DNA from: Sugiyamaella lignohabitans
Taxonomy: Eukaryota > Ascomycota > Dipodascomycetes > Dipodascales > Trichomonascaceae
Assembly (NCBI RefSeq): GCF_001640025.1
Contig: NC_031674.1
Span: 1,612,001-1,676,000 of the forward strand
Reading direction: 5' to 3'
DNA: 64,000 bases
Each line of letters opens with the position of its first letter. Position 1 is the stretch's first letter. Below the pieces are notes generated by a model that was not told the origin of the DNA, ran no database searches, and was given only the letters and a program-made list of their open reading frames with translations. Shown here piece by piece: positions 541 to 63,445 of the stretch. Both the position numbers and the translations under genes were made by a program.

Positions 541-676
541 TGCCTCCGGCGGCTGGGGCTCTGCCCCAGACCCCGTAGCTCCTGCTTCGCAGGAGTTGCT
601 GGGACCGAGACGGAACGACTCGAGCGGAGCGAGAGGAGCAGCGGGGTCTGGGGCGGAGCCCCAGCCGCCGGAGGCA
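541..676 (+). repeat. GC-hairpin element, full length (A then B)
   Basis: Reference full-length copy, 136 bp. It starts TGCCTCCGGCGGC and ends with the reverse complement, GCCGCCGGAGGCA. Within the left end is hairpin 1 (CTGGGGC-TCT-GCCCCAG), then the A arm hairpin CTCCTGC-TTC-GCAGGAG. A ~20-bp spacer (GGGACCGAGACGGAA) follows, then the B arm (GACTCGAG, GGAGCGAGAGGAG) and a second, inverted hairpin 1. The element ends 42 bp from the urate oxidase stop on the opposite strand. Confidence 0.93.
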
Positions 677-2857: not shown

Positions 2858-3733
2858 CACCCCCCGGAACCCGGCCGTTCGGTGCAGACGTCACGTGCGG
2901 GAGGGCATCGCCGAGGAGATACCGACCGGTAGACAGGGAGATCTACCCCATATGGGCGGAACGCATTACCGAGAAAAGATTGTCTGTTTAGAGCCCGCAT
3001 TTTGCGTTTTGCCTTTTCACTTCTCCACATTTTGCTGTTTTTGAGCGGGGTATCGCAGAGCGACAGGTTTTCAGTTCAGTTCTGTTTAGTGAAAAGGTGG
3101 TTCAGGTTCGAAATTTGGCCCCTTTTATAAGAATTTCTTGGTAGCACCAGATCTGACGTCTTCAGATACCGACCTACCCGCTTTGATAACGGTCCTTCAT
3201 CAGTGGTCCACTGGTAGACGTTCTTTTGTCAGCACGGAACCAAGTCTGCGGCATCCTCAGGATATATCAAGGTTCTGTAGGTTTGGCAAGTGCTGGTGTT
3301 TGTTGTTTGATCCGGGTGATTTTGGTTTCCGCTGTTAGTGTGAAAAGATTGCTCAAGTTCAGAGACCATTAACAGGTTAGAAGGTTGGCTCAGATTTCAG
3401 TTTGGGTCTTGGTTCACATATTTCAGATTAAAATTGCAGGATCTGATTTTGGTTCAGATTTTGGTTCAGGTTTCAGTTCAGATTTCAGTTTAGATTTTAG
3501 GCACAGATTTTGGGTTCGAAATTTCTGGATCAGATTCCATAGCTTCAAGTTTCCACTTATCAAGTTCCTCTCTCTTTTCTTGTTTGTTCGTTTGTTTGCT
3601 CAGCGCTGTTAATTCATCTTGCATTGTTCGGTCTAGTCTCACTGGCCATTGCTAATTTATTGGACTGCTGATATAGTCGTCACAGTCGTCCCTAAGCGCT
3701 CTACCGACTGGCTGATTACGACTTGTTTCCGCC

Positions 3734-5047
3734 ATGTCAACGTCGTCTCGGACCATTCCACTGGGTGGCCGTCATGCCCATCACGAAACAGCAAGGATAG
3801 AAGAATACAACGATGACGACGTTGCAGTAGCGACGTCTAATACTCATAGACCAAAACTCAACCATAAAAAGACAAAACGAGAAGACAAGCAGAGTCTGGA
3901 TTACGTGGTGAAATCTGGTATAGCCGGCGGTCTAGCAGGCTCTGCTGCGAAAACGTTGATAGCACCTCTAGACCGAGTCAAGATCTTGTTCCAGACCTCG
4001 AACCCAGAGTTTAGAAAGTATACTGGGTCCTGGACTGGCTTTTATAAAGCAGGAAAACACATTGTAGTTTCTGAGGGACCGCTGGGCCTGTTCCGTGGTC
4101 ATTCTGCTACTCTGTTGAGAATCTTCCCCTATGCAGGAATCAAGTTTATTGCATACGAACAAGTTCGAGGGATCCTGATCCCCAGTTCGGAATATGAAAC
4201 ATCATTAAGAAGACTTCTGTCAGGCTCATTATCTGGCGTAGCATCTGTGTTTTGCACATATCCATTAGATCTGATTAGAGTGAGGTTGGCTTATGACCAT
4301 ACAGGAGCTGTCAAAGCAGCTCGACAGGCATCCAAGACAGCAGTCAATACCGCTGCTGTTTCTACTAAATCAAGTTCAAAACTAGCTTCGAACATGGCTT
4401 CTGCTGCTGCTTCTGCTGCTGCTTCTTCTAGTGGATCTACTGGTACCACCTCATCACCCTCTCCATCTCCAACTACCACTGCATCAAGTCTCTCCTCGGC
4501 CAACAATCCAACTAAACGTAGTCCCGGCCGACTTGCGAGCATTATTACAACCATTTATAATGAACCCAGTCATGCATCATTAAAAATCGCCAATTTCTAC
4601 CGAGGATTCACACCGACAGTACTTGGTATGATCCCATACGCCGGAGTATCGTTCTGGGCCCACGACTCATTCCACGACATCTTCCGATCCAAACTCTTAC
4701 GATCAATTGCCGTCGATTATTCCATGCCAGAATCAGAACATCTCAATGCCACCACGTCACGACGACCACTGAAAGCATGGGCTCAACTGACTGCTGGCGG
4801 ACTGTCAGGTCTGTTCGCACAAACCGCATCCTACCCGCTCGAAGTAGTCCGACGACGAATGCAAGTCAGCGGTGCTGTTGGCAACCATGAACGACAACAC
4901 ATCATCTCGACCGCCAAACTCATCATCCGTGAACGCGGCATCCGCGGCCTCTTCGTGGGACTCACCATCGGGTACATGAAAGTGGTCCCCATGTTCGCAT
5001 GCTCCTTTTTCGTCTACGAACGGGCCAAAATGCTCCTCGGTATTTAA
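3734..5047 (+). CDS. LEU5: Mitochondrial carrier, Leu5/CoA transporter type
   Basis: A 437-aa mitochondrial carrier of the Leu5 (Graves disease carrier, SLC25A16/42) group, needed in yeast for coenzyme A accumulation in mitochondria. Three Solcar repeats carry the Px[DE]xx[RK] signatures PLDRVK (78-83), PLDLIR (177-182) and PLEVVR in the last repeat. Stretches such as TLIAPLDRVKILFQTSNP, GHSATLLRIFPYAGIKF and YRGFTPTVLGMIPYAGVSF are close to yeast Leu5. A long Ser/Ala/Thr-rich insertion (about 190-262, with polyalanine-like and poly-Ser runs) interrupts repeat 2; baker's yeast also has extra sequence there, but shorter. The hydrophilic N-terminus (1-55) precedes repeat 1. CTG encodes a conserved leucine in ATLLRIFPY, supporting the standard code. 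Confidence 0.95.
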   Translation: MSTSSRTIPLGGRHAHHETARIEEYNDDDVAVATSNTHRPKLNHKKTKREDKQSLDYVVKSGIAGGLAGSAAKTLIAPLDRVKILFQTSNPEFRKYTGSWTGFYKAGKHIVVSEGPLGLFRGHSATLLRIFPYAGIKFIAYEQVRGILIPSSEYETSLRRLLSGSLSGVASVFCTYPLDLIRVRLAYDHTGAVKAARQASKTAVNTAAVSTKSSSKLASNMASAAASAAASSSGSTGTTSSPSPSPTTTASSLSSANNPTKRSPGRLASIITTIYNEPSHASLKIANFYRGFTPTVLGMIPYAGVSFWAHDSFHDIFRSKLLRSIAVDYSMPESEHLNATTSRRPLKAWAQLTAGGLSGLFAQTASYPLEVVRRRMQVSGAVGNHERQHIISTAKLIIRERGIRGLFVGLTIGYMKVVPMFACSFFVYERAKMLLGI

Positions 5048-5082: not shown

Positions 5083-5219
5083 TGCCTCCGGCGGCTGGGG
5101 CTCCGCCCCAGACCCGGGTTGCTCCTCTCGCTTCGCTCGAGTCGTTGCGTATCGGTCATGGACATCTCCTGCGAAGCAGGAGCTACCAGGGTCTGGGGCG
5201 GAGCCCCAGCCGCCGGAGA
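5083..5219 (-). repeat. GC-hairpin element, full length (B then A)
   Basis: A 137-bp full copy in reverse polarity: B arm at left (5083-5145), spacer with GTATCGGTCATGGA, A arm CTCCTGC-GAA-GCAGGAG at right. It begins 36 bp after the LEU5 stop. The right terminus reads GCCGCCGGAGAC, slightly decayed. Confidence 0.92.
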
Positions 5220-5241
5220 CCAGTCGGGGGTTTCGAACCAA

Positions 5242-11436: not shown

Positions 11437-11492
11437 TGCCTCCGGCGGCTGGGGCTCCGCCCCAGACCCTGGTTGCTCCTGCTTCGCAGGAG
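11437..11492 (+). repeat. GC-hairpin element, A half
   Basis: Intact plus-oriented A half preceded directly by a run of G (GGGGGGGGGTC), an example of the G-run flank preference. Confidence 0.92.
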
Positions 11493-11915
11493 ATTGCGAG
11501 GACCGTGGAGCCCGCGAAGTCAGAGAAACGAGGGGAGAACGGGAACGGGAGCGGGAAGAAGGGGAGAACCCGAGGGGAAACGGGAACGGGAAAGAGGGGA
11601 GAGGAGGGAGGGGCGATCACGACATGGCAGACGTCACCGTGAATTACTGGGCACACCCGGCTGCTGGACCACCCGGTCGGTCACCCAGTGAGCGAGCCAC
11701 ATCAACGTACTAGCGTCACCGTGCCCCGCCGGTACGGCCTGCCAAACTGTTCGCATTTCTAAACCGGATGATGACGACTAATGATGGGCTGATGCTATTG
11801 TTGGCAACACGCTCAGTGGCAGCAGCCAGCTAGAAAGCCTGCCTAGTTAGACGCTCGTCATCACCAGCATGGAATCTGCCTAACAGTAGCTGGTTCGCTG
11901 GTTCGGTGATAGCGC

Positions 11916-12469: not shown

Positions 12470-12605
12470 TGTCTCCGGCGTCTAGGGCGTTGGTCCAGGC
12501 CCTGGCTGCTGCCATCGCTTCGCTCGAGTCGGGTGAGGGGTGTGGAGGAGCTCTCGCGAAGCGAACTCTGCGGGGTCTGGGGCAGCACCCCAGCCGTCGG
12601 AGGCA
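12470..12605 (-). repeat. GC-hairpin element, full length, diverged (B then A)
   Basis: A 136-bp copy recognisable by its length and B-spacer-A layout, but with many substitutions in the left half (GTCTCCGGCGTCTAGGGCG) and a broken A hairpin (CTCTCGCGAAGCGAACTC). It looks like an old insertion. Confidence 0.82.
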
Positions 12606-13478: not shown

Positions 13479-13632
13479 TGCTTCCGGCGGCTGGTTGTCG
13501 GCCCCAGACCCCGCTGCTCCTGTCGCTCCGCTCAAGTCGTTCCGCTCAAGTCGTTCCGCCCCACGATCCCAGCCAACTCCTGCTTCGCAGGAGCAACCAG
13601 GGTCTGGGGCGGAGCCCCAGCCGCCGGAGGCA
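13479..13632 (-). repeat. GC-hairpin element, full-length-like, with flipped A hairpin
   Basis: Diverged B half (13479-13540, hairpin 1 broken), a 13-bp tandem duplication of TTCCGCTCAAGTC, then an intact A half. The A hairpin loop reads TTC, whereas every other minus-oriented copy reads GAA, so the hairpin appears inverted in place. It is followed by a C-run. Confidence 0.85.
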
Positions 13633-14028: not shown

Positions 14029-14164
14029 TGCCTCCGGCGGCTGGGGCTCCGCCCCAGACCCTGGTTGCTCCTGCTTCGCAGGAGTGTCTGGACCCCTCAA
14101 CACCCGACTCGAGCGCAGCGAGAGGAGCAGTGGGGTCTGGGGCGAAGCCCCAGCCGCCGGAGGC
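14029..14164 (+). repeat. GC-hairpin element, full length (A then B)
   Basis: 136 bp. A arm CTCCTGC-TTC-GCAGGAG, spacer TGTCTGGACCCCTCAACACCC, B arm GACTCGAGCGCAGCGAG. Right-hand hairpin 1 is CTGGGGC-GAA-GCCCCAG. Confidence 0.93.
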
Positions 14165-14378
14165 TGGCCCCTCCCACCGAGTGGAACAGGCCCAGCTCAG
14201 TCACTAGACCACGGGGCTAGTGTTGGCGCTACTGCGGTGATGTGCAATTTTAGTGCACAGGCAGGCGGGCCAGCTCATTAGCGGACGTTGGCGAGAGCAG
14301 CAGCTCCACCGCCAAAACTAGCTCGCTCGCTGCCATAATAGTGGGGCAGTTATAGCGGCAGCCCACCAGCAGCAGCAG

Positions 14379-14659: not shown

Positions 14660-14796
14660 TGCCTCCGGCGGCTGGGGCTCCGCCCCAGACCCTGGTTGTG
14701 CTCCGCTTCGCGGAGCCACTGGGACTGTCGACGCCCGACTCGAGCGCAGCGAGAGGAGCAGTGGGGTCTGGGGCGCAGCCCCAGCCGCCGGAGGCA
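14660..14796 (+). repeat. GC-hairpin element, full length (A then B)
   Basis: 137 bp. A arm GCTCCGC-TTC-GCGGAGC, spacer with GTCGACGCCC, B arm GACTCGAGCGCAGCGAG. It is preceded by a long G-run ending GGGTC and followed by GCCACCCC. Confidence 0.93.
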
Positions 14797-15207: not shown

Positions 15208-15332
15208 TGCCTCCGGCGGCTGGGGCTCCGCCCCAGACCCTGGTTGCTCCTGCTTCGCAGGAGTTTCTGGGCCCGTCGACGCCCGACTCAAGCGAAGCGG
15301 GAGGAGTAGCGGGGTCTGCCCCCCAGCAGCCC
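15208..15332 (+). repeat. GC-hairpin element, full length with truncated right end
   Basis: Intact A half and spacer (GGGCCCGTCGACGCCC). The B half carries GACTCAAGCGAAGCGGG, but its terminal hairpin has an internal deletion (GGGGTCTGCCCCCCAGCAGCC) and the GGAGGCA end is gone. Confidence 0.88.
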
Positions 15333-15528: not shown

Positions 15529-15590
15529 CGACTCGAGCGAAGCGAGAGGAGCAACCAGGGTCTGGGGCGGAGCCCCAGCCGCCGGAGGCA
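15529..15590 (-). repeat. GC-hairpin element, B half
   Basis: Intact minus-oriented B half, followed immediately by GACCCCC, so the terminal palindrome extends into a C-run. Confidence 0.92.
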
Positions 15591-16257: not shown

Positions 16258-16319
16258 TGCCTCCGGCGGCTGGGGCTCCGCCCCAGACCCTGGTTGCTCC
16301 TCTCGCTGCGCTCGAGTCG
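16258..16319 (+). repeat. GC-hairpin element, B half
   Basis: Intact plus-oriented B half with the arm CTCGCTGCGCTCGAGTCG. Confidence 0.92.
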
Positions 16320-17388
16320 GGCGTGGGGATCGGGTCGGAGCTGGGTTAGGAGAGGTCTGGTGCGGTGGGGTGAAGTGGAGGGAGGAGGAGGAGGAGTGAG
16401 GCGTTTGACGGATGGGTGTACTGGTCTGGCGGATAACGTCGCAGCTTCTGCGGTCTCACTCTTAATTCTAGGGGTCACAGAATAGAGCCTTTGCGGGCTG
16501 CTCCGCCCAAGCTGGCAGGGCTATGACTATCACTTCATGTATAGTCCCGAAACCGGATTTATTCACGACGCTTAGGATCCACCGCTATAGCCCGGTATAT
16601 TCCATACGTAATATGCAGACCTATTCAATTTCCATATGTAACGTTTGCTGTGGGCAATGGAAAATATGTACAGTAGTGGAAGAAGCATCTAATTTAATAT
16701 TATTTGTTCCATATTTATTTTTTGGATATGTGGGCAAACTTCATGTACTGTTTATTTTATACCTATCAAATATGTATAATAATATTTTGCTTTATTTTAT
16801 TCCGTTTTTATTATTCTTGATTTATATATGGTTGATTTTTTATCTATACCACTCACTAGCTTCCCTTCTTGCCTTTGCTTTTAGCATTGCTTTTGTCTTT
16901 TGCTGCTGGTTTGTCTTGCTTTTCCGGTTGCATTTACTAACCGCCTTTGCTTTTATCTCAACTCTTGATTCTGATTTACCTTCTTTTTCTTTTTTATCTT
17001 TTTTGTCTATTTATTTATTTTTATTTATGCTGTGTATGTATAGTGCAAACGTAATGTATATCTCCGGCCAACCCCTTGTCTCTTTTTATAGAAGCCAGTG
17101 CAGCGGTACATCAAACGAACATGTCTCACACGGACATATCGCGGACGCAAACACGTTGAGCAGCTACTCACTCCTCTCCAGAATACATACCACAGATGCG
17201 CTCTGCCACAGCTGCCCTCTCTTTTGGGATCCTATCTGTAAGGACATCTCCTTTTGGGAAATACTTTCCCAGCTTCCTGTCGGCCGGCACTTACCGACCT
17301 CCGACCCGACCCACTCCCTCCACTTCTACCTCACAGCCAACCAAACAGTCCATCCAAAAAACGTTTTTTACCAGGCAGCCCGACGCCC

Positions 17389-17500: not shown

Positions 17501-20500
17501 CTCCGTGTTTAGGAGATCGGCGCATATCAGGCAGAAACCATGTGATAGCGCGCCACCACGCGAGATTAGGTTGCGATCTAACTTTTTCTAGAGTACAGAT
17601 CTGGCTTTTGAGGAGGTTAGTTCGGCAGTGGTAGTCGTGACAGGTAGACCTGGGATCCAGGTTGTGAAAGTAGGTAGAAAACTGGAAGACGAGAGCGGTG
17701 CTTTTGATACAAGTGAGACAACACATTAGCGAGAGACGATTTTCAGGTATGGATAACCGTTAAATGCCTGCAGTGTAGTCATCTGCATGGATTGACAGCC
17801 GACTCGATGATCTGCAGTGCACCAAGCTTGACGCCTGATAGCGCACCGGTTGTCATTTTTATTTGGCAGCTTCTATAGGTAAGCGACACTTAATATGATG
17901 TAGTATTTTAGTCCGGCACTGGGATCTTCGCAAATTATCTGATTGTCAGTCTGCCAGAGGTCTTGATTATCGGACTTCTTTTTTTGTTAGCGTCTACACT
18001 AGTAGCGGCAGCAGCAGGAGCGACGGCAGCATTTTGATTAGCGGGGAAACTAGCAATAGCACGATTAAAAGTATGACTAGCATTTTGGAGTCACCGATTA
18101 GTTGCATGAATAAGAGAGATCAGTCAGGACTAGTCCTTAGCTAACGATGTCGGCTAAGGGATTTTCATAGTCATGATATCAAAAACGGGGGGTGGTGGAC
18201 AAGTAAAGTAGATAGGCAGGTTAACTTTGTATGGTTCGGGAAATCTTTTGTTCTATTTATTGTCCTCGTTGTCATCATTTTAGTCCTAGTTCCGACCAGC
18301 TTTTCATTTTTAGAATATATTAATCCAAAATGTACTTATGTATACTAGATTCTAATTATCCGGAACTACTTTGGAAATAAAAATATAATAAATCCGGTCG
18401 GATATTGAACATCTGTCAGGTTCGAGATTACTAGAGCCACAACGGCCCAGGACATATCTGGAGAGCTCTAGGATAAAACATTAAATGACGTAGCTGCAGA
18501 CCCACAGGAGGAACCGACCAAACTCGGCAGCATAATCCACTTTGGGATTATTATCGAGACTGATTAGCATCAAACACAACCAATGATCAATAAGAAGATC
18601 GCAGCATTTTTACATGACAAGGGCTTCCAAGATGTCATTGTTCCGGATATTTGTGTAAAACAGAAGCATAGCAGAAATCTCCCGTTCATGGGAACGAGCG
18701 GAACGAGACCACTTTATGCGGAGATCTACTTAAACCATGGTTCGGCAGACGATTGTCACTACCGGCCTCCTCGATCTGCGAGAGTCTACATTTTGTTTTG
18801 TTTTTTTACTTTAAATTTTATTTTTTTGGTGGCTTCGGTGAGGAGTACTTGTTGTCTCAAACACACGGGTTGGAAATGTCTTAGAATATTTACATTGCAC
18901 ATGAGATCTGTTGTCAGTAACCCTCCTCAAAAAGGAAAAATAAGATTGTAGGCGGTTTTATACCGGTCGGACTTCAAAATGTTAGGAGGGGGGTGAGGGG
19001 AGGGGGTAGAGGTCATTTGATTTTTCATAATTCTATTGGTGGTGTTCAACTTCAACTGATATGCTTGTGTAAAATCTGTGTCTATTCTATATAACTTGAA
19101 TTAAAAAGCAATAACAGAGAACATGAAGAAAGGTCCAGACTGTGATAGTGAGTCGCGCTCCGTTACCGACTGTCTCGGTCGGCTAGAATCTTCAAAACCA
19201 GGAGCTCTCGCTGACAATAATAATCAAAATTCTAAAATAAAAAATATATCTTTTGATATTCAGCAATGGTCATTACTGTGCAATAGAGTAAATAATTTAT
19301 GCGATTAGTTGAAGGGCGGGCTTAACCCGTAGCTTTGCTTTAAAGTTAATATTAGGGGTGAACGTATTTATCTGCACACCCATTAAACTTAATTCCCCGT
19401 TGACGAAATTGATACTACTTCTCTAGTATACGAAATCGCTGTTCATCTAATTTCCTGTTTCATTTGGTTATCAGGGAAATAATGGTTTAAAATCTGAAGC
19501 TCGTGAAACCAGAAAACTGTATTTGGTACTTCTTTAATACCCTGGCTTTCAAGAATATTTTGTTTTTATCTCGTCTACGACTGGCTATACCCTCTGTCTT
19601 TGAAACCATCAATTTCTTCCAGCTTGATATTGAAATAGATACCAATTAATTAATCTCTTACTACCACTGGAAAACATTTTGTTCTGTCTGGTTTTGAGTT
19701 ATTTTATTATCTCAGAAATAAATTAGAACACCATCCAGTTCATATGTTATTTTCTGAAAAGGTAATAGAGAATAATAACTTCAGTTCTGAATTTGAAAAA
19801 GAGCCATACCAATTCTTCTTCTCGTCAAGGACAAGAGTCGACTATTTTTTGGGTTGTCTTGAAATAAACGAATACAAAGTATTCCAAAACTTCAGAGATT
19901 CTCATTCACAGTCAGCTCACTCTTCTCTATTAACTTTAGCACTGGTAAAGTAGAACTAATTGAAATATCCATGAAAGAAAATATTTAAATCATCCTAAAT
20001 GTTACCAGTATAGATTCTTTAATCTTGGCCATGAAAATACCATCTCTTGGAAATAAATTGAAGAGTTCATGGCCAAGAGACAGCAAATAATTTTCGGCTA
20101 ATCTCTATTACACTTTTTAAAGAGGATTTTTTCTTTATATTTTTAATTTACCCACTCCCTAGTTCCTTGTCATTAACTTAGAATCCAGTTAGACAACTAT
20201 CTCAGGAACTCTAGATTCAACAACAATGACCCGTTTTCTTTCCACTATTAAAGGGCTGAGACTTTCAAAACTTTTGTTAAATGAATGAGGTCCAAATTAT
20301 GTTGGCATAGATTATTTCCAAAAAGCAGGCTTACGATAGTTGATGTGAACGAAAAAGAGAGCTAGAAGGCAAAGAAAGATTAATTTATAATAAGCAATCC
20401 ACACTACCGTATTACTGATATTACCAACAGCCATCAACGTGTGCCCACAACTTCTACAAATGGCCAATATTCATCACCAACTAATGACAACCACATAGAA
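17501..20500. other. AT-rich gene desert, no gene seen
   Basis: About 3 kb with no credible ORF and no GC elements. The only structure noted is a perfect 13-bp inverted repeat, TCTTGGCCATGAA at 20023-20035 and its complement at 20066-20078, with a 30-nt loop. Confidence 0.6.
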
Positions 20501-20509
20501 TAATCAACC

Positions 20510-21535
20510 GAAAGGCAACGGACAGATCCAGGTGAGATTATTGGAAACCTTTTGATCATAACAGTGACCTTGATGATATACCGGAGAATTAAAAAAGAGA
20601 TTTCACAGTAGCAACAAGTTAGAAGTATATTTCGAATGATAAAAGGCTAGTGAGATTATAGGGAAACAATACAATTCACCATAACTGTGATTATTAACCA
20701 TATACCAAGAGAAAAATAAAACAAGGTGCACTAGTAATTGAGACACAACTGGTTCAATTTACAATAGAGTCGCTCACTTTGTCATTAAATGATATGAAGC
20801 GGGGTGTAGGTTTGACGGATGTCAAATAGTCGACCATAAGCCTGATATAAACTAGATACCAAGAAGATCATACTCAGAGTTCACAAGTGAACGGTTATGC
20901 TAGAGGTCAATTTGCAACAAATCGTATAGAATAATAATTCACAAGCATACAGAGATAGCCAGGTGAGATTACTGTCAAACTATGACCAAAAGCATTATAT
21001 TAACCATATACCAGGGGTATTACAAGATATCTTTCACAACTAAATATGGACTCTGGATGAATTTGCAACAAGTCACATAGAACTTTATTTCTATTAGTAT
21101 ACCGACAAAGCCAGATGTGATAAATGGCAAAACATTGTCATAACCATGATAATTTAACCGTATACGAAGATGGCAACAAGATAAAGTTCGCAAATAAATG
21201 GTTCGGGATCTAATTGTACGAAAGTCAAGTAGAGCAGTCATTCAATTATCACAAGGACAAAACCAGGTGAGCGAGATTTTCTAGGCAAAATATTGACCAC
21301 ATAAATGATATTAAACATATACCAAGAAAACAACAACCGAGTCCTCAAATAGATAAGATCCATCAGTTCATTGCAAGAAATCAGCATTGTCTTTCGAATG
21401 GTATATAGACAGTCCAGGCGAGATCATTAGCAAGCTGTTGACCATAGATGTCAATATTAACCAAGACCATAATAAAACAATGTTCTCAAATAAATGATAC
21501 CCATCTGGTTCAATTGCAGTAAGTGTATACCAAAT
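20510..21535. repeat. Degenerate tandem array, period about 152 bp
   Basis: Two anchors recur in fixed order. The first is a CCAGGTGAGATTA-like block, at about 20529, 20645, 20960, 21110, 21264 and 21414. The second is an ATTAACCATATACCA-like block, at about 20573, 20693, 20852, 21000, 21154, 21309 and 21457. Spacing is 150-158 bp in most intervals; the first is about 120. Each unit also has a CAACAAG/CAAATAAATGG-type stretch. Divergence between units is substantial, so this is an old satellite-like array. Confidence 0.72.
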
Positions 21536-22140
21536 CGCCATTAATCATGGCATAAGGACCTGCGGACCTGTTGATTTTATCCTGTACTTTGTTTCAGGGT
21601 CTTTGTTAGATCTAGTTGTGGTCGACGTTATTACAGAACTAATAAATTGATTAGTGTAAAAACCCAGTTCCAAGCAGTAAGATTAAAAAAGAGCTAGGAT
21701 TTTTATTTTACCACTGTTTTAAATTGTAAGTTGGTGGTGCCATCATCCTGTCGGTTTCTCGTTTAAAATTTCATTTGATATTTTACGTTGAAGGTAACCA
21801 GTTATTTGCATTCTAACGCTGGAGTGACTGGCGACGAGCCACAGGAGTCGACACTTGACACATGCATGGTGAGCTGATTCACGTTGATGTACCTATTTCC
21901 TTTAAACACTCAATTTTTGTTCACTCTCGTAGATGGCTACGGATGAAAAAAGTTTGTATACACGCGACCAGAAACTTTTATACTGGCTTGGTCTAAGTAT
22001 GTGACGCAATCTGGTCAGCATTGCAGAGCTCGTATTGAAACTGGCACTAAGGAGAATCACTGTGAGAGATTTGAAATTTATACATGGTTTTGGCGAAGTT
22101 CTTTGCTTAGATAATCCTAGGATGCCAATAATCAAGTCCA
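21536..22140. other. Gene-free AT-rich stretch
   Basis: No gene, element or repeat recognised between the two tandem arrays. Confidence 0.5.
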
Positions 22141-22569
22141 GCTGAAGATTTCAAAGAGATTCCAGTAATATCTGTAGCTTTACACAAATCCCTCTCTTTT
22201 GCGGTAAAGGAAGTTATATGGCCCGCCAAGGCAACGGCTCGATCGAAGCTGAAGATTCCAAAGAGATTCCAGTAGTATCTGTAGCTTTACACAAATCCCT
22301 CTCTTTTGCGGTAAAGGAAGTTATATGGCCCGCCAAGGCAACGGCTCGATCGAAGCTGAAAATTCCAAAGAGATTCCAGTAATGTCTGTAGCTCTTTACA
22401 CAAATCCCTCTCTTTTGCGGTAAAGGAAGTTACAAGGCCCGCCAAGGCCACGGCTCGATCGAAGTTGAAGATTCCGAAGAGATTGCAGTAATCTGTAGCT
22501 CTTTACACAAATCCCTCTCTTCTGCGGTAAAGGAAGTTACAGGTCCCGCCAAGGTATTGGCTTGATCGA
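22141..22569. repeat. Tandem array of four 107-109-bp units
   Basis: Units begin at 22141, 22248, 22355 and 22464 (GCTGAAGATTCCAAAGAG and close variants) and are about 90% alike or better. Each contains CAAATCCCTCTCTTTTGCGG and ends GGCTCGATCGAA. The last unit runs directly into a GC-element remnant through GATCGAAGCGGGGTCTGG. Confidence 0.93.
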
Positions 22570-22606
22570 AGCGGGGTCTGGGACGGAGGCCCAGCTGCCG
22601 AAGGCA
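22561..22606 (-). repeat. GC-hairpin element remnant
   Basis: Minus-oriented terminal half: GGGGTCTGGGACGGAGGCCC then AGCTGCCGAAGGCA. The inner arm is replaced by the end of the tandem unit. It is 98 bp beyond the LSB1-like stop. Confidence 0.8.
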
Positions 22607-24186: not shown

Positions 24187-24344
24187 TGCCTCCGGCGGCT
24201 GGGGCTCCGCCCCAGACCCCGCTGCTCCTCTCGCTACGCTCGAGTCGGTCCGTCGACGGTCCCAGCAGTCTCCTGCGAAGCAGGAGCCACGGGGTCTGGG
24301 GCGGAGCCACGGGGTCTGGGGCGGAGCCCCAGCCGCCGGAGGCA
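24187..24344 (-). repeat. GC-hairpin element, full length (B then A) with internal duplication
   Basis: 158 bp. B half, spacer with CCGTCGACGG, A arm CTCCTGC-GAA-GCAGGAG, then the 20-bp stretch from GCCACGGGGTCTGG to GCGGA is present twice in tandem. It ends 63 bp from the SWD2 stop. Confidence 0.92.
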
Positions 24345-25598: not shown

Positions 25599-25739
25599 TG
25601 CCTCCGGCGGCTGGGGCTCCGCCCCAGACCTTGGCTGCTCCTCTCGCTGCGCTCGAGTCGTTGCGTCGACGGTCGGTGCCAATCTCTTGCGAAGCAGGAG
25701 TAACCAGGGTCTGGGGTGGTGCTCCAGCCACCGGAGGCA
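25599..25739 (-). repeat. GC-hairpin element, full length (B then A)
   Basis: 141 bp. B arm CTCGCTGCGCTCGAGTCG, spacer TTGCGTCGACGGTCGGTGCC, A hairpin CTCTTGC-GAA-GCAGGAG with one T-G wobble. Right hairpin 1 is CTGGGGTGGTGCTCCAG, with one G-T wobble but otherwise paired. Confidence 0.92.
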
Positions 25740-30342: not shown

Positions 30343-30404
30343 TGCCTCCGGCGGCTGGGGCTCCGCCCCAGACCCCGCTGCTCTTCTCGCTTCGCTCGAA
30401 TCGG
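30343..30404 (+). repeat. GC-hairpin element, B half
   Basis: Plus-oriented B half, 50 bp after the J-protein stop. The arm reads CTCGCTTCGCTCGAATCG. Confidence 0.92.
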
Positions 30405-30442
30405 GCGTGGGGGTTTCCAGAGCTCCTCCTGACAGAAAAAGA

Positions 30443-30496
30443 GCTCGCGAAGCGAGCACAACGGGGTCTGGGGCAGCGCCCCAGCTGCCGGAGGCA
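30443..30496 (-). repeat. GC-hairpin element, A half, GCTCGC stem variant
   Basis: A hairpin GCTCGC-GAA-GCGAGC, linked to hairpin 1 with the AGC loop and to the ACAACGGGG junction, as in the other GCTCGC copies. Confidence 0.92.
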
Positions 30497-36248: not shown

Positions 36249-36944
36249 TTCTGTCTGATCACAAAAAATCTCCCAAAAAATCTAGAAAAAATCCCTGTCA
36301 GATCTCGAGATCCCGCTGGTCAATCGCCATATAAAAGGGATTTAACTCCACATGTCCAAGATCGGCGTATATAAGCGCGTTCCCAGCTCACAGATCTGAC
36401 AGTCCTAATCGGCACGATCGCCTGTCCGTCTATGCAGGGCGCTCGGAGAATCTATTTTACATACATACTACGGCCGCGACGGGCATGAAAAGAAAAATCT
36501 TATTTAAACTTTAAGGTTTTGGCTGGTCGTGCGACTCTACACATTATTACTGCCGATACTATTGTATTTGTACTCACTTTATGCATTCTCAGTAGTTTAT
36601 TTGCATATCCAACCTGACACATATCGGTCCTCCTATCAATGAGAGCATGTCTCCGAACGTTATTTCAGCCTCCAAAAAAAGCTTGTTCCCACGCTCTCGC
36701 CACTCTCTCGTCTGATCCGGTTGCAGCTCACTCTCTTCTGGAAGTTCGATTGAAAATTTTTTTTCCGTGCTCTATGGCGGGACAGACTGCCTCCGGCGGC
36801 CGGGTTCCGCCCGGACCCGTGGCTCCTCTCGCTTCGCTCGAGTCGTTACGTCGGGCGTGATTGGTTTTTTCGGTGAAGGTGCAACTGTTAATTGCTCGTG
36901 CTCTGATTATAAATTTAGATTTTATATTTTATATTTTAAAATAT
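36249..36944. other. Intergenic region between the nonaspanin promoter and the AKR 3' end
   Basis: About 700 bp; AT-rich upstream sequence of the nonaspanin gene plus one GC-element B half close to the reductase 3' end. No gene seen. Confidence 0.6.
36788..36846 (+). repeat. GC-hairpin element, B half, compensated hairpin 1
   Basis: Hairpin 1 reads CCGGG-TTCCG-CCCGG instead of CTGGGGC/GCCCCAG. The T-A pair has become C-G on both sides and the stem is one pair shorter. The B arm CTCGCTTCGCTCGAGTCG is intact. It lies 100 bp from the reductase stop. Confidence 0.9.
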
Positions 36945-38397: not shown

Positions 38398-38457
38398 GAC
38401 TCGAGCGAAGCGAGAGGAGCCACGGGGTCTGGGGCGGAGCCCCAGCCGCCGGAGGCA
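38398..38457 (-). repeat. GC-hairpin element, B half
   Basis: Intact minus-oriented B half, back to back with the next copy, so the two termini face each other across 18 bp. Confidence 0.92.
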
Positions 38458-38475: not shown

Positions 38476-38536
38476 TGCCTCCGGCGGCTGGGGCTCCGCC
38501 CCAGACCCCGTTGCTCCTCTCGCTTCGCTCGAGTCG
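38476..38536 (+). repeat. GC-hairpin element, B half
   Basis: Intact plus-oriented B half, 103 bp from the sirtuin stop. Confidence 0.92.
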
Positions 38537-38638
38537 GGGCGTCGGGTATGGGTCAGATGCAAAAAATTCTATTGGAAATAAATACAGATATAAATATACA
38601 CAGCTGTGAAGGGGCTGGGGGGTGGTGGTGAGGACGGT

Positions 38639-39739: not shown

Positions 39740-39915
39740 CGGCCTCCGGCGGCTGGGGCTTCGCCCCAGACCCCGTAGCTCCCGCTTCGCGGGAGTTGCT
39801 CGGGTAGTCCCTTGAGATTTTGGGTTCACGGTCTGCTAACTTCTGGACCCGGAGGCGCAACTCCCGCGAAGCGGGAGCTACGGGGTCTGGGGCGAAGCCC
39901 CAGCCGCCGGAGGCA
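39740..39915. repeat. GC-hairpin element pair, two A halves inverted
   Basis: Plus-oriented A half (39740-39795) and minus-oriented A half (39861-39915) facing each other with a 65-bp spacer. Both carry the rare stem CTCCCGC/GCGGGAG and the rare hairpin 1 loop TTC or its complement GAA, so the two arms match each other better than they match other copies. It ends 52 bp from the UGO1 stop. Confidence 0.92.
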
Positions 39916-44810: not shown

Positions 44811-46702
44811 CCATTTGTTGTATTTATTAGGAATTTATGTTTAAATATTAGCTCGTTCTGCCTTTGAGGTAGATTTTCCTTGGTGCTTTAACAAATTGTC
44901 TGGAGGGTATTTGTTGCAGTTAAACCTATTAGATGTATTATTCTAGCACTTTGTATACATCCAAGAAGTCTAGGTTCTTGGAATCCCTCATTTCATATAA
45001 TGAATTGTCAGCTTTGGTGAAAATTACTAGCCGAACACAATCAGCTGGAGGCGCTACTTCGAGATATTAGTCGAGATGTTCATCCTGGACACTTCATTGA
45101 GTGATCCAGCTCATACTGTTGCCAGGAATTACTGATATCAAGTGTGAGTTTTAACGGTGTTACCCGGTTTTGAATTTATTCTGGCTTCCCAATTAGGAAG
45201 AATTCTACCTTCGATCACTGACATTTGCCCTCTACGAACCAAAAGAGCACAGGTTTCCGGACAGCTACAAGTTGAACATGATCAGCTGGAGAGACCCTAC
45301 TTCGAGATATTAGTCGAGATGTTCATCTTGGACACTTTATTGATTGATCCAACTCATTCTGTAGCCGGGAATCACTGATATCAAAAGTGTGAGTTTTACC
45401 AGTGTTACCCGGTAGTTGTCCTGATTCTGGCTTCCCCAATTAGGACGAATTCTATCCTCAATCAACTAATTTGCCCTCTAAGTATTGGTATTTCCAGCTG
45501 CCAGGGAGCCCGTGACGCTCCCCAGTTCACGCATTAATATTAGCATTTCCAGCTGGCAGTATGGATCCAGGACGAATATCCAGACTACTATCTCCAGCCG
45601 ATCATGCAGAGGATCTGGCATGTATGTAGATGACTCGACAGCGCTTGCCCGACTAATATCTGATCGTGCAGAGGATCTAGCATGGATGTAAATGACTCGA
45701 AATGGGCTTGCCCGACTAATATCTCCAGATGTCGAATTCAATCAGTATTTCCTTTGGTATCAGACTCTCGATATTTCTTAACAATCGCCGAATTCCTTTG
45801 AGCAAGGAAAATTAAAATAAAATTTGAATAAAAAATATAAAAAAAACCTAAATTGTAAAATTGAGGGGTTACCCGGAGTATAAATCAGTAGTCGCTATCT
45901 TAAGCCTGCAAATCAAGTATTAATAGAGTGGTCATCCCGGCTATATATAAATAATGCGATATAGAATTGTCTGAATTATATAGTATAGATAATTAAAAAT
46001 GATTTAGTGATTTATTCTGCTCAGCTCTCGATCTCTGTCATTTGCCCTCTATGGACCAAAGAGCCCAAGCAATATCTAAAGAATTGAGACAACAGCCGCT
46101 CTTCCCTAAGTTATTGAGACGATATCTCGAACGAGAATCATCACATGGATGCGAGAAATACAATTAAATTAACCTGAAAGGCTGCTTATATTAATCTTAG
46201 AATATATTGCACGAACCAACACCTCATCGCATATGTCAATATTGTGATGCATATATCAATAGGGTAATGCATAAGCATGTAAACATGGCAACGTTGGATA
46301 TTGGCATTCTCATATGCTAAAACAGTGGCGTACCTGGAAATAATAGCTGGATTCTTTCAAGGCATGGATTTATAGAGCGTCCAATGATGCTAATCTCGAG
46401 TTTAGGATGCCACTGGAATTATCCGTTGAGAGAACTTGACTTAGTGGAGATAAGGGGATAGTTAGTGGATTGCGTAGTGACTATGGCGATGGAAATTTGA
46501 CAACGTCGACGAATTAGTTTGCGAGTGAAATGATTTGGCAAGTCCGTTGTTTTTTTCGAGATTGTGTACCTAATCCTTTAACTTGAAGAAAACAGCCACT
46601 ATCAGTCTTGTTTACTTTGACCGACTGCTAACATCTATCATGCCTGTGACAACAATATGATAACCCACATTTATGTCATAGGGTTGTATTATTTTATACA
46701 AG
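44811..46702. other. Intergenic region holding a complex AT-rich repeat
   Basis: Between the convergent coiled-coil and NCA2 genes; no ORF is credible. It is one of two intergenic 3' regions lacking GC elements, and instead carries the complex repeat at about 45,030-46,110. The rest (46,110-46,700) shows nothing recognisable. Confidence 0.7.
45030..46110. repeat. Complex AT-rich repeat, copy 1 (rearranged)
   Basis: Contains about two tandem ~235-bp units (CAGCTGGAG, CTACTTCGAGATATTAGTCG, GTTACCCGG, CCAATTAGGA, TTTGCCCTCTA) to about 45,480. Two short units with GCAGAGGATCTGGCATG follow at about 45,600-45,690, then an AT-rich core ending TTGAGGGGTTACCCGG (45,700-45,880), then a segment like the left end of copy 2 (45,880-46,075). 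All blocks recur at 61.9-63.4 kb in different order and orientation. Confidence 0.85.
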
Positions 46703-48899: not shown

Positions 48900-48953
48900 T
48901 GCCTCCGGCGGCTGGGGCGCTGCCCCAGACCCCGTTGTGCTCGCTTCGCGAGC
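48900..48953 (+). repeat. GC-hairpin element, A half, GCTCGC stem variant
   Basis: Hairpin 1 with the GCT loop and A hairpin GCTCGC-TTC-GCGAGC joined by CCCCGTTGT, the standard combination for this subtype. Confidence 0.92.
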
Positions 48954-50610: not shown

Positions 50611-50752
50611 TGCCTCCGGCGGCTGGGGCTCCGCCCCAGACCCCGCAGCTCCTCTCGCTGCGCTCGAGTCGTTGCTTCAGGCTGACCAAGAATAATCTCC
50701 TGCGAAGCAGGAGCAACCAGGGTCTGGGGCGGAGCCCCAGCTGCCGGAGGCA
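50611..50752 (-). repeat. GC-hairpin element, full length (B then A)
   Basis: 142 bp. B arm CTCGCTGCGCTCGAGTCG, spacer TTGCTTCAGGCTGACC, A arm CTCCTGC-GAA-GCAGGAG, terminus CTGCCGGAGGCA. Confidence 0.93.
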
Positions 50753-52342: not shown

Positions 52343-52480
52343 TGCCTCCGGCGGCTGGGGCGCTGCCCCAGACCCCGTAGCTCCTGCTTCGCAGGAGAAT
52401 GCTGGGACCGTCGACGAAACGACTCGAGCGGAGCGAGAGGAGCTACGGGGTCTGGGGCAGCGCCCCAGCCGCCAGAGGCA
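52343..52480 (+). repeat. GC-hairpin element, full length (A then B)
   Basis: 138 bp. A arm CTCCTGC-TTC-GCAGGAG, spacer GGGACCGTCGACGAAAC, B arm GACTCGAGCGGAGCGAG. Both hairpin 1 copies have GCT/AGC loops, so the two ends match each other. The terminus has one change (GCCGCCAGAGGCA). Confidence 0.93.
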
Positions 52481-58544: not shown

Positions 58545-58595
58545 TGCCTCCGGCGGCTGGGCTCTGCCCAGACCCGTTGTGCTCGCTTCGCGAGC
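58545..58595 (+). repeat. GC-hairpin element, A half with shortened hairpin 1
   Basis: CTGGGC-TCT-GCCCAG (one pair lost symmetrically) and GCTCGC-TTC-GCGAGC. Same combination as the copy at 13,340. Confidence 0.9.
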
Positions 58596-58871
58596 GGGTG
58601 GGTCCCGGCGGTTTTGGAGAATTGGGCCTGAGGATTGGGAGAGCGTGTTGACGCAGGGTCTGTCGATCAGGGCCCAGCCAGCTCAGGGGTGAAAGTGGGT
58701 TGGAAATCTTGTGTATTTCGTTTAGGTTCCACTCTTACAGGCTGTGCTCGTTTTCGAGCGAGGAGGAGGTGTTAAATGCCGATTCAGGTAATATCCAGCG
58801 TTGGATGGCGCAGGGTCCGCAGATCAGGGTCCACTTCAGGGACCAAGTTCCAGCAGGGACACCCGACGAAC

Positions 58872-60569: not shown

Positions 60570-60669
60570 AGCCCTACGTGGGGGTCGAACCCACAACCTT
60601 GTGATGACTTTTATCTTGATGAATCAAGTTATTAAGAGTCACACGCTCTACCGATTGAGCTAGCAAGGC
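60570..60669 (-). tRNA. tRNA-Lys (CUU) with a 27-nt intron
   Basis: The minus strand folds as a full cloverleaf: acceptor GCCTTGC with GTAGGGC, D arm TAGCTCAATCGGTAGAGC, anticodon stem TGTGA with TCACA, and T arm GTGGGTTCGACCCCCAC. The anticodon CTT sits in loop CTCTTAA. A 27-nt intron follows position 37, and both GGTTCGA and the D-arm box A are intact. Confidence 0.93.
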
Positions 60670-61287: not shown

Positions 61288-61934
61288 CGCTCTTGTTATC
61301 CTTTTGAATACGAAAATGATAACCTCAACACTCATCCGTATTATTGCGTGATCTTAAGGCCCCAACATAGCCCAGTATCACCAGAAAAACCCACTAACAC
61401 ACCCTCGAGCCAAATTTATCAACTAAATCACAGTAGTACCATTCAGAAGTGCGCTTTTAATCAAAAATCACACGATGGTCTAGCTTTTTGACGAAATAGG
61501 CACTCTTGTGCAACTGGTTCGCTTCAAAATTATTGCACCACCACCTGTGATCGAAATATGTTATATTTGCGGAAATATGTCTTTATTTTTCGATAAATGT
61601 TTTTTTTTTTTCATTTCCATTCTCTTATTTTATTTTAATGTTAGACGAATGCAGACATTTTCAAGAATATTCCACTCCCAAAAAACTTAAACCGAAACTT
61701 AGGAATACTAAAGAGGAACAAGATAAATGGAAATGAGAAAGAACTTAAACTTATACCGCTTACCCGCCAGAACAAAATTGAGTGAGAATTCATCCCTATC
61801 TACATATGAGATGAGTAGAGCCGGTTTCGTTTTCTGTTACAAAACGGTTTATAACCCTGTAGCTGAACCGTTTTCCCGGTACTCGTCGAAATATCACAAA
61901 TTTTTCTTGATATACTAAATGGGAATTCAGAGGA

Positions 61935-63445
61935 ATCATATATTTTGAAATCTAAAATAGCCATAGCAAGCCTGCAATCAGCTAATAAGAAAGTAGTCAT
62001 CTTGGTTATACATAAACTATGCGACTCAAAATTGCCTGAATCATATAGTAGATAACTTAAAACATGATTTAGCGATTGATATGTTCAGCTTTCGTTCTTT
62101 GCCGTTTGCCCTCTATGAACCAAAAGAGCACATGTTTCCGGACAGCTAGCAGTTGGAAACGATCAGCTGGGGACCCTACTTAGAGATATTAGTCGAGGTT
62201 TTCATTCTGGGCAGTTTATTGAGTGATCCTCATACTGTTGCCTGGGATTACTGATATCAAAGGTGTGAGTATACTAGCGTTACCCGGCTTTCGAGTCCAT
62301 TCTGCTTCCCAATAAGGAAGAATTCAACTTTCGATCACTGACATTTGTGATTTGCCCTCTATGACCCATAAGACCACATGTTTACGGATATCTGCCATTT
62401 GAACATAATCAGCTAGAGAGACCCTACTTCGATACATGAGTCGATATGTCCATTCTGGACACTTTATTGAGTGATCCTATTCATACTGTGGCCAGGAATT
62501 ACTGATATCAAAAGTGTGAGGTTTACCGGTGTTACCCGGTTTCTGTCCCGATTCTTTCTTCCTAACTAGGAAGAATTCAACCTTCAATCAACGACATTGC
62601 CCTCTATAAACCAGCACATGTTTCCAGACAGCTACAAGCTGAACACAGTCAGCTGGAGACCCTACTTCGATATATTAGTCGAGATGTCCATCCTGGAAAC
62701 CAATGCGACTTCTGCTTTCATTATTACCGAGCTTTCAGCTACTGAATTTGTAATCCGGGTAACCCCTCAATTTTACATTTGGGAAATTTTATATTTATTT
62801 TTTTATTCAAAATTTTATTTATTTTAATTTTCCTTGCTCAGCGAAATTCAGCGATCTGTTAAGAACTATCGAAATTCTGATACCAAAGGAAATACTGATT
62901 GAATTCGACCATCTGGAGATATGAGTCGGGCAAGCCGATGTCGAGTCAACTGCATCCATGCCAAATCCTCTGCACGATCAGGTATATAGTCAATGTCGAA
63001 TCATCTACATCCATGCCAGATCCTCTGCACGATCAGATATTAGTCGGGGAAGAACATGTCGAGTCATCTACATCCATGTCAGATCCTCTGCATGGAAGCC
63101 AGAATCAGGACAGATACCGGGTAACAGCGGTATAAAACTCACACTTTTGATATCAGTAATTCCCGGCGACAGCATGAGTTGGATCAATCAATAAAGTGTC
63201 CAGGATGGACATCTCGACTAATATCTCAAAGTAGGGTCACCAGCTGACCGTGTTCATCTTGTAGCTGTCCGGAAGCATGTGCTGGTTCATAGAGTGCCAA
63301 TGGCAGAGGGTCAAGAGCTGAGCATAATCAATCGCTAAATCATGTTTTAAGTTATCTATAATATATAAATCAGACAATGTTATGTCGCATCATTTATGTA
63401 TAACCGGGATGACCACTCTCTTAATACTTAATTGCAGTCAGATTG
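61935..63445. repeat. Complex AT-rich repeat, copy 2 (large inverted repeat)
   Basis: The left arm (61,960-62,700) has an end block (GATTTAGCGATTGATATGTTC). About 2.5 tandem ~240-bp units follow, each with TTTGCCCTCTATGA, GGAC near TTTCCGGACAGCTA, CCTACTTCGA-ATATTAGTCG and GTTACCCGG. The core is AT-rich (62,750-62,890), followed by three ~50-bp units with CATCCATGCCAGATCCTCTG (62,938-63,090). The right arm (63,095-63,435) is the reverse complement of one unit plus the end block. No ORF resembling a transposase or polymerase is present. Confidence 0.87.
62787..62797 (+). other. ARS consensus match in the repeat core
   Basis: TTTTATATTTA fits the budding-yeast WTTTAYRTTTW consensus exactly, in T-rich surroundings. 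Such matches are common in AT-rich DNA, and copy 1 does not keep it, so this is weak. Confidence 0.25.

Follow-up and report, generated by a model that had tools for sequence, protein, structure and literature searches.

A GC-rich palindromic repeat occupies positions 541–676 of the 64-kb stretch of Sugiyamaella lignohabitans DNA analysed here (the window; C2:1612001–1676000 of the assembly), where a 136-bp full copy on the plus strand consists of an A half, a middle part, and a B half that together form an inverted pair. The A half begins with the outer unit TGCCTCCGGCGG (541–552), which is invariant and whose last 11 bases are common to bacterial families, and continues through hairpin 1, CTGGGGCTCTGCCCCAG (553–569; CTGGGGC-TCT-GCCCCAG), a stretch of A-CCCC 3′ of the stem that is likewise common to bacterial families (570–574), and the arm A hairpin CTCCTGC-TTC-GCAGGAG (579–595), all on the plus strand. 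The arm B hairpin lies at 619–635 and reads CTCGAGC-GGA-GCGAGAG, with a GNA loop, on the plus strand; it is followed on the minus strand by the right hairpin 1 (648–664) and the right outer unit (665–676; CCGCCGGAGGCA on the plus strand). The copies of this repeat lie among nuclear, yeast-like genes, including those for uricase, mitochondrial carriers, and EMP70.

The region also carries a second dispersed repeat family, partly tandem and partly inverted, with approximately 76–91% identity in the rows seen, at 45033–46064 and 61602–63437 of the window and at 2874–3840 of locus L037; in the window it lies near two tRNA genes, and it possibly represents retroelement remnants. The second tRNA gene (60570–60669), which has an Rfam match and was missed by ARAGORN with bacterial settings, is probably intron-bearing, given its length of 100 bases. 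A tandem array of four units of approximately 107 bp (22071–22572) is found at the edge of an AT-rich stretch (18001–22000), and the GC-poor region beside the array has a GC content of 0.36–0.37 and no gene called by the hexamer score.

Leaving out the 5 of 194 copies that exceed 6 mismatches, as in most counts given here, the architecture was read from 189 halves, each of which runs from TGCCTCCGGCGG into a CTGGGGC-NNN-GCCCCAG hairpin, ACCC, a short variable linker, and one arm. The arms are of type A (CTCCTGC-TTC-GCAGGAG), type B (CTCTCGC-TNC-GCTCGAG-type), or type C (GCTCGC-TTC-GCGAGC-type), with 9 left unclassified; an earlier note on this DNA had described A and B, to which type C is to be added. 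Full copies (130–165 bp, n = 41) are inverted pairs, in 32 cases of the unlike halves A and B, and 83 of the 189 halves lack a partner within 215 bp. The two halves of a pair resemble each other more than chance predicts, as loops agree in 28 of 43 pairs (20.2 ± 2.1 expected from shuffled pairs) and linkers in 31 of 43 (16.9 ± 3.0 expected from shuffled pairs).

Most of the 11 or so full or full-like copies that the earlier note had listed for the window hold up under this description: besides the copy at 541–676, they comprise, on the plus strand, AB copies at 14029–14165 (137 bp) and 52343–52480 (138 bp) and a CB copy at 14660–14796 (137 bp), and, on the minus strand, BA copies at 5083–5221 (139 bp) and 50611–50752 (142 bp), a 158-bp copy at 24187–24344 in which hairpin 1 is partly duplicated internally, and a B half joined to a degenerate A half at 25599–25739 (141 bp). 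The full-like copies at 12470–12605 (plus strand, 136 bp) and 13479–13632 (minus strand, BA, 154 bp) are degenerate, and the one at 15208–15328 (plus strand) is broken at its right end, its B half being interrupted at approximately 15,310–15,328 and the next intact outer end lying at 15590. Three inverted pairs, with no strand assigned, were absent from that list: a BC pair at 30343–30496 (154 bp), a pair with CTCCCGC-TTC-GCGGGAG arms at 39741–39915 (175 bp), and a B...B pair with matching inner tails at 2329–2857 (529 bp). Solo halves, all on the plus strand, include an A half at 11437–11493, B halves at 16258–16320 and 38476–38538, the latter back to back with a half whose outer end is at 38457, and a C half at 48900–48953.

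The stem of hairpin 1 is changed in the plus-strand half at 36788–36850 (CCGGG...CCCGG) and shortened in that at 58545–58600 (CTGGGC...GCCCAG), and in the copies read such changed stems still pair; cores of the two kinds number 160 and 95 genome-wide, by patterns whose last stem base is A or G, so that these are counts of cores and not of stems read copy by copy. The loops are also constrained. Read on the complement of the TGCCTCC strand, hairpin-1 loops are of the form GNA or GNNA in 115 of 158 cases, and GAA forms the loop in 68 of the 69 perfect stems of A and C arms. The loop centre of 91 B arms is variable (T48, G30, C8, A5), while its two loop neighbours deviate in 1 and 2 arms and the seven positions nearest to the centre (7–11, 13, and 14 of the position table) deviate in no more than 4; a separate count, in which 87 of 89 B arms had GNA loops, was set aside because its pattern allowed only loops starting with A or G and ending with A on that strand. 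Arm B can also be read as a candidate tandem sheared-GA arrangement. DNA loops of the GNA and GNNA types closed by at least two G–C pairs form unusually stable mini-hairpins (PMC4686876). The energy parameters for DNA give all 64 loop triplets one score, and the fold energies of the two strands are approximately equal (means of −15.8 and −16.0 kcal/mol, the strand with the GNA loop being lower in 97 of 179 cases), so energy speaks neither for nor against the proposal that very stable GNA mini-hairpins have been selected for, and its support comes from the loop spectrum.

The estimate of about 55 half-copies in the window in the earlier note was borne out by 53 at up to 6 mismatches in a 30-nt core, 37 of them holding the exact 19-mer, whereas 20 resamplings of the window by a first-order Markov model gave none each. 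A limit of 8 mismatches yields 59 window sites, opposite-strand shadows among them, and there are at least five further halves with a changed or shortened stem (13341, 27442, 36788, 58545, and 49298). The assembly searched, of 15,932,016 bases (15.93 Mb) in 4 contigs, holds 2,675 + 2,667 = 5,342 exact 19-mer cores, with none for the backwards control, and 5,732 copies of the yeast 18-mer GCCTCCGGCGGCTGGGGC; the genome has been described as 16.0 Mb in 4 chromosomes, 50% of it coding (PMC5499181). Genome-wide density was taken only from 20 evenly spaced 10-kb samples of contig 1, loci L001–L030 having been preselected for holding a copy; the 70 copies in these samples extrapolate to approximately 5,600 halves, and the ratio of all to exact halves in the window (53 to 37) extrapolates to approximately 7,600. 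The samples hold from 0 to 9 copies each, and 6 of the 20 hold none; the density is uneven, a correction to the recurrence about every 1.1 kb given in the earlier note. No description of the repeat was found in the literature searched, among the matches listed, by titles and the starts of abstracts, which puts the label "unrecognised" to only a partial test; the genome paper of S. lignohabitans (Bellasio et al. 2016), outside this scope, may mention it. A paper on Trichomonascus vanleenenianus lists LINE, Ty3, and Tc1-mariner remnants, and "palindrom" is absent from its main text (PMC13130702).

The placement of the copies relative to genes was analysed with genes predicted by a simple hexamer score, which misses some genes. 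Three halves overlap predicted genes. For the 119 copies with both neighbours known, copies are enriched 2.4–3.3-fold at up to 200 bp from predicted stop codons and reduced to 0.2-fold within 100 bp of predicted starts, with 1.3-fold at 100–200 bp from starts. Full copies reach 0.94 per kb in convergent intergenic DNA (9 copies in 26 regions), 0.47 in tandem (11 in 25), and 0.18 in divergent (4 in 18). Halves point with the nearest gene end in 35 cases and against it in 10, a result set aside as a trivial outcome of inverted pairing. The repeat might on these grounds be a functional, selected element, such as a bidirectional 3′-end or an insulator between convergent genes, that is kept for its use and not by selfish spread, and the terminator-like T-runs of a bacterial relative described below would suit this idea. 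However, 12 of the 26 convergent regions are without a copy, 6 of the 20 sampled 10-kb stretches are free of copies, and avoidance of promoters alone would lead to an equal pattern; a function of this kind is considered an improbable explanation. Outward T4 runs within 14 nt were found at 0 of the 189 yeast halves, unlike in intrinsic bacterial terminators.

The outer flanks of the copies are rich in G, with a G4 run no more than 14 nt from the outer end in 101 of the 189 halves (background, 3%), and copy density tracks regional GC content over 20 loci in both coding (rho 0.87) and masked non-coding DNA (rho 0.91). The GC content of predicted coding DNA ranges from 0.41 to 0.51 across loci L031–L050, rising and falling with repeat density as in GC domains. 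The two flanks of a pair are alike as inverted repeats over approximately 20 nt (469 matches against 399.6 ± 15.3 expected, 61 pairs), a pattern that insertion of copies into palindromic G-rich sites, or extension of such sites by them, would produce.

The earlier note rightly described a dispersed, non-autonomous, palindromic family, and its statement that the window holds no transposase agrees with a scan of 10 of the 40 listed window ORFs, in which none was noticed; its comparison with a MITE does not survive. The terminal inverted repeats that define the MITE class are present, but a fixed-length target-site duplication, which the class also has, is absent. A direct flank match of at least 2 nt occurs in 4 of 61 inverted pairs, against 5.5 expected from shuffles, and the other 57 have none; a scan of 52 pairs over duplication lengths of 2–8 and offsets of 0–10 (847 combinations) is flat, with none standing out and the best combinations giving 1 observed against 0.0 expected and 3 against 0.3. 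The MITE assignment was rejected on this absence. That the family is nevertheless the MITE of a DNA transposon, mobilised by a DDE transposase encoded at another genomic locus, would accord with its inverted ends, the narrow size range of full copies, and thousands of nearly identical cores, but besides the missing duplication at boundaries and offsets, the numerous partnerless halves, the unlikeness of A and B, and the sharing of the ends with bacterial relatives render it very improbable indeed. A self-comparison of 326.8 kb showed no empty site in its 60 longest matches, so the mobility of the repeat is deduced from its copy number and identity. An origin of 541–676 in a plasmid or vector was rejected, as no plasmid record matches over 80% of its length (40 records match partially, with E up to 10), and so was a phage origin, with 2 records of 22 nt each.

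Relatives of the repeat were found in bacteria, and these expanded families, which share its end and hairpin grammar, were missed by the earlier reading, which is upheld only in part. In a scan of 84,980 species, with one genome each and contigs under 3 kb left out, a 27-base core was found in four contigs, belonging in GTDB to Solidesulfovibrio aerotolerans DSM 16695 (G001), a Desulfovibrionaceae metagenome-assembled genome or MAG (G002), an Acetobacteraceae MAG (G003, JAIYDS01), and Desulfovibrio sp. UBA6079 (G004). All four genomes, three of which are Desulfovibrionaceae, hold families of 104–343 copies: GCCTCCGGCGGCNNNNGG is present 269, 104, and 113 times in G001, G002, and G004 (controls 1, 0, and 0) and 0 times in the Acetobacteraceae MAG (control 3), which instead contains the yeast 18-mer GCCTCCGGCGGCTGGGGC 343 times (control 0), many of these copies being inverted pairs. 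The 18-mer has one copy each in G001, G002, and G004 and none in G044, and the yeast exceeds the MAG in its number by more than ten times, or approximately fivefold per megabase. At least 10 copies are found in 21 of 120 genomes of the order of G001, which we take to be Desulfovibrionales (G001 included), and in 2 of 148 genomes of its phylum (G001 and G044). Around the Acetobacteraceae MAG, 0 of 199 family, 0 of 288 class, and 0 of 248 phylum genomes other than itself reach 10 copies, the highest counts being 3, 0, and 5; the patterns differ slightly between these samples, which overlap. The viral contigs yielded nothing for the 27-base core and, for a looser pattern, 12 stretches with matching units in 11 IMG/VR contigs, and one element of the Acetobacteraceae MAG has no match among plasmids.

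The grammar common to yeast and bacteria consists of GCCTCCGGCGG, a hairpin that starts from the very next base, and A-CCC(C) behind it. It was compared between the yeast, the Acetobacteraceae MAG, and a Desulfobacterota set (L051, L052, and L054–L092, which includes two single-match genomes, L085 and L086, and the Y1 loci). A perfect hairpin of at least 5 bp directly follows GCCTCCGGCGG at 158 of 167 yeast sites, 28 of 34 sites of the Desulfobacterota set, and 35 of 40 sites of the MAG, with stems of at least 7 bp at 147, 28, and 35 sites, respectively, whereas such stems begin at 0.2–0.6% of background positions. The tail A[A/T]0-2-CCC lies 3′ of the stem in 152 of 158, 26 of 28, and 30 of 35 cases, and stem and tail occur jointly at 0.015–0.042% of background positions. 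Stem and tail were part of the search pattern for 2 of the 28 Desulfobacterota-set and 1 of the 35 MAG sites, the remaining bacterial sites having been picked only by the 12-mer plus GG or by the 18-mer; GCCTCCGGCGGC was in every bacterial search pattern, so its constancy there is a product of this selection.

The bacterial repeats, for which no published name was found in the literature searched, resemble the yeast repeat in end unit, hairpin register, A-CCC(C), occurrence in multiple copies, and, in the MAG, inverted pairing, but they differ from it in several respects. Their stem letters vary (CCAAAGG, CCGGGGG, CCAGGGG, and CTTAAGG), stems and loops are other than those of the yeast, arms A, B, and C were not found in the bacterial copies read, and copies number tens to hundreds instead of thousands. 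All 20 MAG stretches fetched, which were chosen for having both ends listed, are inverted pairs, of 81–136 bp except for one minimal hairpin of 42 bp, and T4 runs adjoin 14 of the 20 on the right and 6 of the 20 on the left (background, 1.3%), as at bidirectional terminators. In the Desulfobacterota set, the length of the C-run follows that of the stem G-run (rho 0.71, 28 sites), the two being equal in 46% of sites against 21% when shuffled. The corresponding rho is 0.75 in viral contigs (24 sites, from a pattern that includes hairpin and tail) and only 0.29 in yeast. The matching of the two lengths in the Desulfobacterota set may reflect alternative pairing, or slippage of one run against the other.

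The main alternative account of this likeness is convergence, in which GC-rich extragenic palindromes reach one grammar through the physics or repair of hairpins and the common 11- to 12-mer is a coincidence or a structural attractor. Hairpins with GACCCC and without the end unit do occur as weak matches in Streptomyces and Rhodobacterales plasmids, and because a hairpin with ACCCC occurs by itself in plasmids, a part of the likeness may be that of a recurring GC-rich palindrome; one Streptomyces and two Roseobacteraceae plasmids (L125–L127) carry CTGGGGC-loop-GCCCCAGACCCC hairpins without GCCTCCGGCGG. Loop spectra also differ between lineages, as GNA or GNNA loops are read from the complementary strand in the yeast (115 of 158 hairpins) and the Desulfobacterota set (5 of 28) and from the sense strand in the MAG (19 of 35), and the samples from the family, class, and phylum of the MAG hold no second genome with at least 10 copies. 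Against convergence, the exact 11- to 12-mer, the exact hairpin register, A-CCC, and inverted pairing are all shared, and the 12-mers scattered in other genomes of the G001 phylum and of the family and phylum of the MAG (0–3, 0–3, and 0–5 per genome, the expanded genomes apart) precede varied letters among the matches listed; convergence appears somewhat unlikely.

Among known systems, the REP and BIME elements of bacteria, which have been described together with their RAYT transposases (PMC3733652, whose main text does not mention Desulfovibrio), resemble the yeast repeat as high-copy extragenic palindromes that occur singly or paired (PMC3733652, PMC2817692). They carry a GTAG/CGTC-type tag; none was found at the outer ends of the 189 yeast halves, which end in TGCC and are flanked by no position at which one base exceeds 60%. 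Mobilisation by a RAYT, which is a Y1 (HUH) transposase, is a further difference, as PF01797 has 0 matches in the yeast and matches in 5 of 14 control genomes. Two matches each were found in G001, G002, and G004 and none in G044 or in the Acetobacteraceae MAG, which may be incomplete, so Y1 transposases do not stand out as a factor that all families share, although one may still serve those of Desulfovibrionaceae. The Helitron Rep/helicase profile PF14214 matched no genome, controls included, and is uninformative. The comparison of the repeat with mitochondrial GC clusters in the earlier note is fair as a description: these are also short GC-rich palindromes whose units merge and shuffle and whose copying machinery is unsettled (PMC4478555), and the likeness is one of description. 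The GC42 cluster has AG target nucleotides and leaves some footprints (PMC4478555), and the yeast repeat is nuclear, not mitochondrial.

The end unit, hairpin position, and A-CCC(C) that are the same in the Desulfovibrio-type and Acetobacteraceae families argue for one family across domains, and its patchy occurrence (21 of 120 genomes of one order, one isolated Acetobacteraceae genome, and one yeast), together with the shared grammar and inverted pairing, fits a mobile palindrome that crosses lineages. Judging from these sequence comparisons, we assign a probability of about 0.5 to the reading that one palindromic family of the bacterial, REP/BIME-like type reached the nuclear chromosomes of the yeast and multiplied there; on this reading, a spacer repeat of bacterial kind appears to have colonised the nucleus of a eukaryote. 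A REP/BIME-like family would have entered the yeast nucleus horizontally; a full copy consists of two unlike halves in opposed orientation, each with the end unit and two hairpins. The family would then have multiplied into the thousands, leaving no target-site duplications and settling often at G-rich spots near the 3′ ends of genes and in GC-rich domains.

It is proposed more tentatively that this bacterial family, once moved to the nucleus, owed its amplification to DNA repair templated by hairpins and needed no dedicated transposase. Copying would most likely be carried out by the repair or replication of the host, with the hairpin-prone single strand being copied into breaks or stalled forks through template switching or break repair. 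Such a mechanism would fit the absence of target-site duplications, the inverted-repeat flanks, the concerted halves, the internal partial duplications (24187–24344), and the residence in GC-rich DNA. Much about the spread of extragenic palindromes such as REPs and GC clusters is still unsettled. If the reading is true, ends shared between bacteria and a yeast nucleus would point to a copying route that is independent of any host-specific enzyme and to a self-spreading sequence that works in both domains, and would offer a tractable yeast in which such copying could be watched; non-coding repeats, like genes, may thus cross domains.
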